Shown here: positions 52,755-55,707 of the stretch, in pieces
Numbering within the stretch: the stretch's first letter is position 1
Layout: the number at the start of each line of letters is the position of its first letter
Made by a program: the position numbers and the translations under genes
Notes under the pieces: generated by a model
What the model saw: the letters and a program-made list of their open reading frames with translations, nothing else
Databases searched by the model: none
What the model was told of the DNA's origin: nothing
Assembly: GCF_034350045.1 (NCBI RefSeq)
Contig: NZ_CP133781.1
Coordinates: 3,644,501-3,708,500 of the forward strand
Origin: Pseudomonas sp. CCI4.2
GTDB taxonomy: Bacteria; Pseudomonadota; Gammaproteobacteria; Pseudomonadales; Pseudomonadaceae
Direction of reading: 5' to 3'
Length of the DNA: 64,000 nucleotides

Positions 52755-52773
52755 TGATTGCGAGGTGTTAGAG

Positions 52774-53028
52774 ATGGGGCTGGTAAAAATATCGGAACAA
52801 ATGCATGCCAATGCGCGCGCTGCTAGCGCGGCGCTGAGTCGTTCTATCAATGCACAAGCCGAGCATTGGATGAAGGTCGGGATGATGGCGGAACTGCATC
52901 CTGCGTTGAATTACAGCGACATCTGCCAACTGCTCATTCGTGCCGAACACGCGGGTGGCAGTGTCTTATCGGCGACTCCATTTGACCTATCGGCTCAGAC
53001 TGGCCAATCCCAGGAAGCGTTGCAATGA
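52774..53028 (+). CDS. ParD-like antitoxin-family protein
   Basis: 84 residues from ATG 52774 (GTG 52765 possible). MGLVKISEQMHANARAASAALSRSINAQAEHWMKVG matches the ParD-like family (PF11903), with a ribbon-helix-helix-like N-terminus and a helical region ending ICQLLIRAEHAGG. The gene overlaps the following methionine aminopeptidase gene by 4 bases (ATGA), so the two are cotranslated. A ParE-type toxin is absent; the aminopeptidase takes the place of the expected toxin gene. Function uncertain. Confidence 0.8.
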   Translation: MGLVKISEQMHANARAASAALSRSINAQAEHWMKVGMMAELHPALNYSDICQLLIRAEHAGGSVLSATPFDLSAQTGQSQEALQ

Positions 53029-53816
53029 GCCCGAGCATCAGTATCAAGACCGAAGCCGATCTGGTTCAACTGCGAATCGCCGGCAGATTGGCCGCAGATG
53101 TACTGGCGATGATAGGTCCTCATGTAAAAGCCGGGATCAGCACCGAAGCGCTGGACGATATCTGCAACGATTACATCGTGAACGAGCTGAAAGTCATTCC
53201 GGCCAACGTGGGCTATCACGGTTTTACAAAAACCACCTGTATCTCTCCGAACACGGTGGTGTGCCACGGTATTCCGTCGCCAACAGACATCCTCAGGGAT
53301 GGTGACATCATCAACATCGATGTGGCAGTGATCAAAGACGGTTGGTTTGGCGACACTAGCCGCATGTATTTTGTGGGTGAAGTCAGCCCATTGGCACGGC
53401 GCCTGGTGGAGACCACGTATGAAGCCACCCGCGCCGGCATCCTCGCCGTTCGCCCCGGGGCAACGCTGGGCGATATCGGTTATGCCATTCAGAGCGTTGC
53501 CCATCGCGAAGGCTTTAGCGTGGTGCGCGAATACTGTGGGCACGGCATCGGCCGCGCCTACCACGAAGACCCGCAAGTGCTGCATTACGGCAGTGCCGGG
53601 CAGGGAATGAAATTGAAAATCGGCATGGTGTTCACCATTGAGCCGATGATCAACGCGGGGAAACCCGGCACCAAGGTATTACCCGATGGCTGGACGGTTC
53701 TGACCCGCGATCAATCCCTGTCTGCTCAGTGGGAGCACATGGTAGCGGTCACCGCTACCGGCTTTGAACTCTTGACGCCTTGGCCGGAAGGTACGGGTGA
53801 GTACCCCGCCATCTAA
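53025..53816 (+). CDS. map: Methionine aminopeptidase type I
   Basis: 263 residues, the normal length. The five metal ligands are all present: Asp and Asp in NIDVAVIKDGWFGDTSRMYF, His in YCGHGIGRAYHEDP, Glu in VFTIEPMINAG and Glu in SAQWEHMVAVT. The fold signature NDYIVNELKVIPANVGYHGFTKTTCISPNTVVCHGIP is typical. The enzyme removes the initiator Met from nascent proteins. A chromosomal housekeeping map normally lies next to rpsB; this copy, coupled to a ParD-like gene, is probably a second one with an accessory role. Confidence 0.93.
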   Translation: MSPSISIKTEADLVQLRIAGRLAADVLAMIGPHVKAGISTEALDDICNDYIVNELKVIPANVGYHGFTKTTCISPNTVVCHGIPSPTDILRDGDIINIDVAVIKDGWFGDTSRMYFVGEVSPLARRLVETTYEATRAGILAVRPGATLGDIGYAIQSVAHREGFSVVREYCGHGIGRAYHEDPQVLHYGSAGQGMKLKIGMVFTIEPMINAGKPGTKVLPDGWTVLTRDQSLSAQWEHMVAVTATGFELLTPWPEGTGEYPAI

Positions 53817-53822
53817 GAAGCT

Positions 53823-54050
53823 TTAACTCGATCGTTTCCACTGCACTTCAGTAATGCCGAGCCCTTCGGCTTGCTGGAGTGCCAATCGAAGCGGGCCTGC
53901 GGCCACCTGCGCATGGGTGCTCACAATCCCTGCGTGAAGGGTGGCCATGTGCAGCGCTTCACTTTCACACAAATGAGCGGCGTTATGAGCAAAGTGACGC
54001 TGCTCTCCGTTGAACTGATAACAAATTTCAAATCCTATTTGCTGGTCCAT
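53823..54050 (-). CDS. Small hypothetical protein
   Basis: 75 residues from ATG 54050, GGAGG seven bases upstream. Two conserved-looking features: FEICYQFNGEQRHFAHNAAHLCESEALHMA and a C-terminal LGITEVQWKRSS; several His residues and one Cys. No family recognised. Convergent with map. Confidence 0.5.
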   Translation of the reverse strand: MDQQIGFEICYQFNGEQRHFAHNAAHLCESEALHMATLHAGIVSTHAQVAAGPLRLALQQAEGLGITEVQWKRSS

Positions 54051-54342
54051 CAATGCGCCTCCGCCAGTTAACGTAAAAATGCGGCATGTCGATCACTTCA
54101 AGCAGCTACGGCGCAAGAGCTGTCGCTCGAAAAAACGTTTCTACAAAGCCTCTCTTTCGGACTTCTCACTGTCGAAGAAATTGCACCTTTTTGAACGACA
54201 TTGGACGATCTTCCGATGAGTGGAAACACGCAAAAATTGTAAAGGGCGCGCTTCAAGAATTGGCCTGTTTTCGGAACTGACTTACAACGTCCGGCGACGT
54301 CCGGTGTTACAGTGCCGTCTCTATTTAGACGAGGAAGTACGC

Positions 54343-54531
54343 ATGTCACTGCTAGATGATGAACAAGACATTTGGGATATGTTTGCAGCCTCGGCCTTGA
54401 CCGGTTTGATCGGCCGCGGCGCGATCGAGCCCGTCGACGCTGCCGAATTGGCCGCTGATTACGCGTCGGAGTTGATGATCCAGCGCTCCCTGCGTATCCA
54501 GGCTGAAGAGGATGCAGCCGACGCGTCATAA
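54343..54531 (+). CDS. Small acidic helical protein
   Basis: 62 residues from ATG 54343, GAGGAAG upstream. Helical and acidic (LLDDEQDIWDMFAASALTGLIGRG, DAAELAADYASELMIQRSL). No signal or membrane segment. Ends just before a strong terminator, so probably a genuine gene. Function unknown. The 290 bases upstream hold no supported feature. Confidence 0.55.
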   Translation: MSLLDDEQDIWDMFAASALTGLIGRGAIEPVDAAELAADYASELMIQRSLRIQAEEDAADAS

Positions 54532-54549
54532 GACGTCGTCCGGCTTCAT

Positions 54550-54590
54550 CAAAAAGCCCGGCACTTTCGCAAGTGTCGGGCTTTTTTGCG
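54550..54590. terminator. Bidirectional terminator
   Basis: AAAAAGCCCGGCACTT / AAGTGTCGGGCTTTTTT hairpin with A and T runs on both sides, between the rightward small gene and the leftward endonuclease gene. Confidence 0.9.
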
Positions 54591-54606
54591 TCGATTGTTT
54601 CGCTAG

Positions 54607-55296
54607 TCAGCTGCAGGACTTAAGATTCACCGGGCCGACAAACTCATTGCCTCGACCCATCACGCAGGCCACCCGCTGATTGCGTTGACTTTCCCACGGC
54701 TCTACCGGGTACGTCTTGTTCCAGGCTTCGTACAACTGGCGGTCTTGTTTCGACAGGGGCAGGGCGTATTGCTTGCTCATATAAAAATAGGTCCGGGCGA
54801 TCATTCCGCGAATCGATGGGCGTGGCATGACCTTCTTGGCTTTGAAATCGACTTGAGTCAGGCAAGAACCGTATTGCCCTGACCGGACGGGAAGCCAGCC
54901 AAAACTGAAGTTGCTTCGGTCACCGTTGACCTCCCCAATACTCGGCACCAGATTGTGCAAGTCGGCTTCGGCGTGCTGGTACATCGAATCGTTCTTGGTG
55001 CAGTTCTTACGTCCACCGTTTTGCCAACATTGGCGCAAATGGCCGATCTGCCAGGCCGGCATGATGTGCTCCCATTCAATGCGCTGGGCGCGGCTGGCAC
55101 TTTTGCGTGGGACATACCCGCATCCGGCGATATCGACCCGGTGTCCGCTGTATTTGCAGCCGCAATAAAACTCGGTCGATTGCGGCGCATAGAGACCCCA
55201 CGCGATTTTTTTGGCTTCACTGAAGGTGCGGGGTGCATCAGCATGGGCAGTGATGGAAAAGCTCAATGCTAGCAAGGCGATTATTCGTACAAACAC
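54607..55296 (-). CDS. endA: Endonuclease I (EndA family), secreted
   Basis: 229 residues from GTG 55296, following a GAGG. Signal peptide VFVRIIALLALSFSITAHA. The His-Me finger nuclease core is RIEWEHIMPAWQIG (catalytic His) and HAEADLHNLVPSIGEVNGDRSNFSFG, as in E. coli endonuclease I and Vibrio Dns. CGCKYSGHRVDIAGCGY and KNCTKN hold the disulfide cysteines. It degrades DNA in the periplasm or outside. It starts 4 bases after the DUF1654 stop, so the two form one unit driven from a LexA-box promoter. Confidence 0.92.
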   Translation of the reverse strand: MFVRIIALLALSFSITAHADAPRTFSEAKKIAWGLYAPQSTEFYCGCKYSGHRVDIAGCGYVPRKSASRAQRIEWEHIMPAWQIGHLRQCWQNGGRKNCTKNDSMYQHAEADLHNLVPSIGEVNGDRSNFSFGWLPVRSGQYGSCLTQVDFKAKKVMPRPSIRGMIARTYFYMSKQYALPLSKQDRQLYEAWNKTYPVEPWESQRNQRVACVMGRGNEFVGPVNLKSCS

Positions 55297-55300
55297 TGCC

Positions 55301-55552
55301 TCAATCTTCCTTCGGTACGGTCCAGAAAATCTGCACGCCGCCGTCGTCACGGTAGGCGAGGGTGACGTTATCGTTTTCTGCTATTTCGCCCAGTAGTTGA
55401 TTCCACTCATCTTCCAGCTCTTCTGGAAGACGCATAATCAGCGCGGTTCTCGATTTCTGTGCGTGAGTGGAATTGATGATCTTTTGAATCCGCACGCCAA
55501 GTAGTTCGTAGGAACTAGGGGCCTTGGGTGTCGCTGCAGTCGTCTTTGCCAC
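55301..55552 (-). CDS. DUF1654 family protein
   Basis: 83 residues from GTG 55552 (AAGGA upstream), starting VAKTTAATPKAPSSYELLGVRIQKIIN; the rest (ALIMRLPEELEDEWNQLLGEIAENDNVTLAYRDDGGVQIFWTVP) is the conserved DUF1654 core, a family largely confined to Pseudomonas and its phages. Helical then beta; no known activity. The LexA box lies 19 bases upstream and endA follows immediately. Frames extending to 55627 run through the box and were rejected. Confidence 0.88.
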   Translation of the reverse strand: MAKTTAATPKAPSSYELLGVRIQKIINSTHAQKSRTALIMRLPEELEDEWNQLLGEIAENDNVTLAYRDDGGVQIFWTVPKED

Positions 55553-55570
55553 GGAGGAATCCTTGGTTTG

Positions 55571-55586
55571 CTGTATGTGCATACAG
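55571..55586. promoter_or_regulatory. LexA SOS box
   Basis: CTGTATGTGCATACAG: CTG-N10-CAG and a nearly perfect 16-bp palindrome, matching the LexA consensus closely. It is the operator of the leftward DUF1654-endA unit. Confidence 0.88.
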
Positions 55587-55707
55587 TATTTCACTGTGGG
55601 AATTTTCGCAACCGACGGATTGATCAAATTCTAGGACCGACGTGATGGCGCCGTTAAGCAAACTCAATAAGTCACCGCGTTGCTCGTCAGGAGGCGTGAG
55701 TGGAGAG

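Follow-up and report, generated by a model that had tools for sequence, protein, structure and literature searches.

The reverse strand of the window (i.e. the whole stretch of 64,000 nucleotides that was analysed) raises the question of why a gene for a secreted DNase should lie under a LexA (SOS) box and directly behind a small gene of the family DUF1654, and to which of the two genes the SOS control belongs. Our data point to a two-gene SOS operon in which DUF1654 would act as an SOS accessory protein, not as an inhibitor of EndA, and in which the DNase would be an exchangeable effector, a reading to which we give a probability of about 0.62.

Layout of the DUF1654–endA operon

The DUF1654 gene (55301..55552, minus strand; 83 aa) starts with GTG behind a ribosome site AAGGA (55560–55564, minus strand), read from the sequence, and ends with the stop TGA at 55303–55301. 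Its product matches PF07867 in Pfam with an E-value of 5.9e-30 (103.3 bits vs a gathering cut-off of 27) as well as phrog_2707, is acidic (net charge −4, pI 4.9, with a family mean net charge of −6) and is without a signal peptide. After a gap of 4 nt follows endA, encoding endonuclease I (54607..55296, minus strand; 229 aa, GTG start), whose ribosome site GAGG (55299–55302, minus strand) overlaps the DUF1654 stop. A terminator hairpin with flanking A/T runs is found 3′ of endA (54551..54586, minus strand), the RNA fold of 54545–54620 reaching −25.5 kcal/mol (z −3.2); it probably works in both directions, serving also a convergent 62-aa ORF (54343–54531, plus strand) for which there was no Pfam match. 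The original prediction had placed the DUF1654 stop 4 bases from the start of endA, which we confirm, and had taken the two genes as one transcription unit, which is supported by this terminator and by a gap of 4–7 nt in most of about 80 genomes with DUF1654 and endA in tandem. The neighbourhood also contains a DUF6555 gene (53823–54053, minus strand) and an odd pair at 52765–53816, i.e. an M24 gene (methionine aminopeptidase-type) whose start is overlapped by a ParD-like antitoxin-type gene (PF11903).

EndA belongs to PF04231 (E-value 8.3e-34, 117.8 bits vs a Pfam gathering cut-off of 25) and shares a 199-residue alignment with solved endonuclease I structures, among them Vibrio Vvn/EndA. Its residues E76-H77, R96 and N124 are in register with the Glu-His, Arg and Asn positions of Vvn (WEH, GGRKNC and EVNGDRSN), which we take to be catalytic. 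A signal peptide covers approximately residues 1–19, as judged by eye, and the secretion that had been predicted is supported in the form of probable Sec export. Against the NCBIfam deoxyribonuclease I equivalog PRK15137 the protein scores 264.4 bits, below the cut-off of 372; by sequence it is a homologue of this enterobacterial equivalog, not the equivalog itself.

Vvn, E. coli EndA and P. aeruginosa EndA share the PF04231 domain and the signal peptide with the EndA of the window. To our knowledge, none of the three is known as LexA-controlled, and unlike them the endA of the window is the second gene of a LexA-box operon. Overexpression of the P. aeruginosa EndA disperses biofilms (PMC9769550). 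Of the two EndA enzymes in P. putida, one is predicted to be periplasmic and the other is possibly released (PMC4230525).

Promoter and LexA box

Upstream of DUF1654, a sigma-70-type promoter can be read from the sequence on the minus strand, with the −35 element TTGCGA (55606..55611) and, 17 bp downstream, the −10 element TACTGT (55583..55588). The latter overlaps a LexA box, CTGTATGCACATACAG (55571..55586, minus strand), a palindrome whose two 7-bp arms are perfect and enclose a 2-bp centre; its outer edge lies at 55586, and the promoter extends to 55611. When at most 3 mismatches to the palindrome are allowed, this is the single match in the 64-kb window (0.05 expected), and pattern searches for LexA sites gave three occurrences of the exact core pattern CTGTATNNNNATACAG in the genome of 5.57 Mb. 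The near-perfect LexA palindrome of the original prediction thus stands; its distance of 19 bases to DUF1654 does not, as we count 18 nt from the 3′ edge of the box to the GTG at 55552. An in-frame ATG at 55582, inside the LexA box, was set aside as the DUF1654 start, being without a ribosome site.

A consensus scanner did not call the TTGCGA/TACTGT promoter, the pair falling off its thresholds. Across 102 distinct chromosomal DUF1654 promoters the −35 TTGC at the same spacing is invariant or nearly so, and it is conserved in the viral ones; in terms of information content, the two promoter elements (TTGC for the −35) and the box rise above flanks that drift, and the contrast is sharpest among viral promoters.

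The source genome has genes for RecA, for LexA and for a second LexA-like protein, and the upstream regions of its lexA and recA contain boxes of the same class that are less perfect. The second LexA-like gene (L395, C1:4112509) is followed by ORFs resembling an imuA-type cassette; therefore, two LexA regulons may coexist in this genome.

Conservation of the box at DUF1654

DUF1654 was found in 173 of the 199 Pseudomonas species genomes searched. The motif CTGT-N8-ACAG stands shortly upstream of it at 110 of the 111 chromosomal loci read and at 80/80 loci from named genomes, a set that overlaps the first in species; at viral loci the box is exact in 71/77 and near-consensus in the other six. 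Control 100-bp windows of the same loci contained the motif in only 17 of 10,413 cases (0.16 %). Since the genomes are related and the sets overlap, the loci do not count as independent events; yet many viral and other-family copies of DUF1654 are well diverged (about 25–60 % identity) and keep the box arrangement. Comparative genomics thus lends very strong support to the predicted LexA control, and the gene order in other Pseudomonas, i.e. the pairing of DUF1654 with the box and the usual order of DUF1654 before endA, holds across most of the genus. Literature searches combining LexA and endA in Pseudomonas found nothing on a DUF1654–endA operon.

DUF1654 beside umuDC, on plasmids and in phages

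DUF1654 also keeps other company. It lies upstream of umuDC at one chromosomal locus (L112), on a plasmid of Pseudomonas sp. HR96, where the box has one mismatch, and at a locus from another family of the order (L195), where the genes overlap. Six loci, mostly on prophage-type contigs, have umuDC and DUF1654 in divergent orientation, with a single LexA box in the approximately 50 bp between them. Plasmid copies adjoin a UmuC C-terminal-type gene (DUF4113), and another plasmid copy, with only half a box, is located near an SOS-response-associated peptidase. At the umuDC loci a LexA box accompanies DUF1654, as it does in the window, where the partner is a DNase and not a polymerase.

In prophages, near repressor genes, and in other families DUF1654 stands alone, nearly always with the box. 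At the phage loci read, it forms a unit of its own, under its own box and with a terminator-like hairpin behind it, and a CI-like repressor gene lies within 3 kb in 46/80 viral loci; among annotated phages, phi297, PS-1 and VW-6S carry DUF1654 near CI. The phage connection that the original prediction had proposed is borne out by these viral copies. Viral contigs with endA mostly resemble chromosomal flanks at contig ends.

These arrangements raise the alternative that DUF1654 originated in phages and is primarily a LexA-controlled antirepressor, or modulator of repressors, of the type of Tum (phage 186) or GfoA/GftA (Gifsy), with domesticated chromosomal copies that cross-talk with prophage or tailocin repressors. 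LexA-controlled antirepressors are known (PMC3121763), and a LexA box in temperate phages, which such a role calls for, is present in exact form at the 71 viral loci mentioned above, with more than 70 viral loci carrying DUF1654 as a separate LexA-box unit. However, an antirepressor role would leave the association with umuDC and with nucleases unexplained, and most genomes of Pseudomonas have kept DUF1654, probably irrespective of whether they carry a matching prophage. As an account of the family, we regard it as unlikely, at something like one chance in five.

endA with and without DUF1654

Wherever endA lies behind DUF1654, the box is present (85/85 loci, i.e. 80 plus five more), whereas only one of 60 endA loci without an upstream DUF1654 has it (by manual count, these 60 comprise about 26 short-type genes and about 34 that encode a longer paralogue). 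Therefore, endA appears to gain its SOS control from DUF1654, and on these comparisons the SOS control would belong to DUF1654. The sole exception is L183, where the box stands straight upstream of endA and DUF1654 was not detected, which suggests direct LexA control of endA at that locus. The longer EndA paralogue (about 310–330 aa, about 48 % identity) is without LexA box or DUF1654.

The reverse case, DUF1654 without endA behind it, was found at 31 of the 111 chromosomal loci as well as in phages. No PF04231 gene at all was found in 11 of the 199 genomes, and all 11 have, immediately downstream of DUF1654 and in the same orientation, a gene for a secreted PF03372-type (DNase I-like) nuclease (ten of these loci were read with the first chromosomal set and the one from G184 separately). 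A search for the PF03372-type nuclease matched exactly those 11 genomes plus three more, in which the copies are partial or less closely related. At L077, L101 and other EEP loci, the nuclease in place of EndA combines a DNase I-like domain with a weak C-terminal Ada-type zinc-binding match that is below cut-off. In several other genomes endA has been lost behind DUF1654, leaving only DUF1654 and the box, with a remnant of endA at L035. Several genomes without an SOS-linked endA keep a long EndA elsewhere, without a box; therefore, the SOS-controlled DNase is not indispensable.

Such losses would fit endA as a simple passenger, co-transcribed and made upon SOS induction without any selected function. 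In contrast, the presence of an unrelated secreted nuclease in the exact position of EndA in all 11 EndA-less genomes, and the LexA box directly on endA in L183, speak against mere co-transcription, which we consider rather improbable. Replacement by a non-homologous nuclease at one position argues instead that a secreted DNase under SOS control is selected for. By its distribution, the secreted DNase would be an exchangeable passenger or effector attached to DUF1654.

The same replacement bears on the proposal, already part of the original prediction, that DUF1654 regulates or inhibits EndA. In its widest form the proposal would have DUF1654 inhibit the nuclease expressed with it, confer immunity to it or act as its export chaperone, and be made ahead of it so that the DNase does no damage before secretion; indeed, DUF1654 is translated just ahead of the nuclease in about 85 loci, and in all 11 genomes without EndA it precedes the unrelated secreted nuclease. 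One small protein would, however, have to inhibit two unrelated nucleases, and since EndA is exported and disulfide-rich, there is less need for a cytoplasmic inhibitor. The strict co-occurrence of DUF1654 and endA that a nuclease–immunity or toxin–antitoxin pair would show was not found: DUF1654 and its box persist where endA is gone, where another nuclease has taken its place, beside umuDC (preceding it or diverging from it), and alone or beside umuDC in phages, plasmids and other families, all of which argues against an EndA inhibitor, and 59 of the 60 endA loci without an upstream DUF1654 are box-free. The claim of a specific EndA regulator or inhibitor is thus not upheld, and the wider role as immunity protein or chaperone is doubtful, with odds of little better than one in ten.

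Variation of the box and the promoter spacer

Chromosomal DUF1654 boxes share a core, CTGTAYGCNCRTACAG, that is GC-richer than the boxes of lexA or recA. They may therefore have a lower affinity for LexA, or the site may be shared with a second regulator. The −35/−10 spacer contains a further inverted repeat, CAGT-N5-ACTG (55584..55596, minus strand), conserved in chromosomal DUF1654 promoters and absent from viral ones, which is possibly a second operator. That the palindrome itself serves mainly another repressor (CI/PrtR-type or other factor), as this special core and the second conserved repeat might suggest, is very improbable, because ordinary AT-rich LexA boxes occupy the same place in the DUF1654 copies of viruses, plasmids and other families and a single box stands between divergent umuDC and DUF1654.

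The DUF1654 protein and small proteins in comparable settings

A published role for DUF1654 was not found in the open-access literature, where a single paper mentions the family by name, in line with the initial statement that the family has none. The family alignment shows R21, W50 and W77 to be invariant. A model built from 71 sequences, with four phage-collection rows left out, has the order helix-helix-strand-helix-strand-strand (i.e. three helices and three strands) at a pLDDT of 89.6. Neither a PDB profile search nor Foldseek returned a significant relative, and the best rows of VIA-align (Z 5–6) are tied between R3H, S8 and Smr folds and are too weak and mixed to point to a function; the argument on the role of DUF1654 therefore rests on context. 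A match to DinI was likewise not reported in Pfam, PDB-profile or fold searches, although such an absence is not proof. P. aeruginosa PA0922, a member of the LexA regulon divergent from dinB (PMC8944484) and induced 3.7-fold by peroxide (PMC1250226), was considered as a DUF1654 protein, but this could not be shown; the DUF1654 gene of genus g3 (L197) adjoins an isochorismatase-like gene, not dinB.

Several known proteins resemble DUF1654 in setting. Like it, DinI, Tum, GfoA/GftA and GIL01 gp7, a small protein acting on LexA (PMC4551915), are small, are under a LexA box or act on LexA, and occur on chromosomes and near prophage immunity genes, whereas similarity in sequence or significant similarity in fold to DUF1654 was not found. 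Given this genomic context, a DinI- or Tum-like role is the more likely one for DUF1654.

A model for the operon

In the two-gene SOS operon that we favour, LexA bound to the box overlapping the −10 element would block the DUF1654–endA promoter, which would open upon DNA damage through RecA-driven cleavage of LexA. A single mRNA would then yield DUF1654 and, after it, EndA. DUF1654, as the constant LexA-controlled member, would be a small acidic cytoplasmic protein serving the SOS programme, most likely by binding an SOS component (RecA, DNA, or a repressor of the LexA/UmuD/CI type), in the manner of DinI or Tum. To this SOS-controlled head gene the secreted DNase would be attached as an exchangeable effector; EndA, exported by the Sec route, would digest DNA in the periplasm or outside the cell, acting when SOS, prophage or tailocin induction lyses part of the population and releases DNA. 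In P. aeruginosa biofilms, explosive lysis of a sub-population has been described to release cell contents (PMC4834629). Degradation of released or incoming DNA by the DNase in connection with damage would follow naturally from this arrangement, and a role in biofilm or eDNA turnover, as had been suggested for this locus, is plausible.

A parallel exists in Serratia marcescens. Its extracellular nuclease NucA is SOS-inducible, with indirect control via a phage-type activator, and is likewise a secreted DNase made on DNA damage, which for EndA is a prediction from sequence. NucA is, however, unrelated to EndA, and its operon is not known to carry a direct LexA box or DUF1654.

It is tempting to extend this model to the family as a whole. 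DUF1654 would then be a core SOS family of Pseudomonas chromosomes, plasmids and temperate phages, i.e. a LexA-controlled modulator of RecA, LexA or UmuD-CI with exchangeable effectors (EndA, the DNase I-like nuclease, Pol V), a generalization that we put forward tentatively and rate at somewhat below even odds.

Implications

SOS-induced nucleases and LexA-controlled small proteins are kinds that were already known; what is new is that DUF1654 can be assigned to the SOS response and that EndA has been exchanged for an unrelated nuclease. A near-universal gene of Pseudomonas thereby gains a firm regulatory assignment, and most of the genus is seen to have a secreted DNase encoded under a DNA-damage switch, with two unrelated nucleases occupying one and the same position. 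Why damaged populations would make an extracellular or periplasmic DNase, e.g. for the clearance of eDNA after lysis, dispersal, nucleotide salvage or limits on incoming DNA, can now be tested, and DUF1654 is a pointer to an unstudied SOS protein shared by phages and their hosts.
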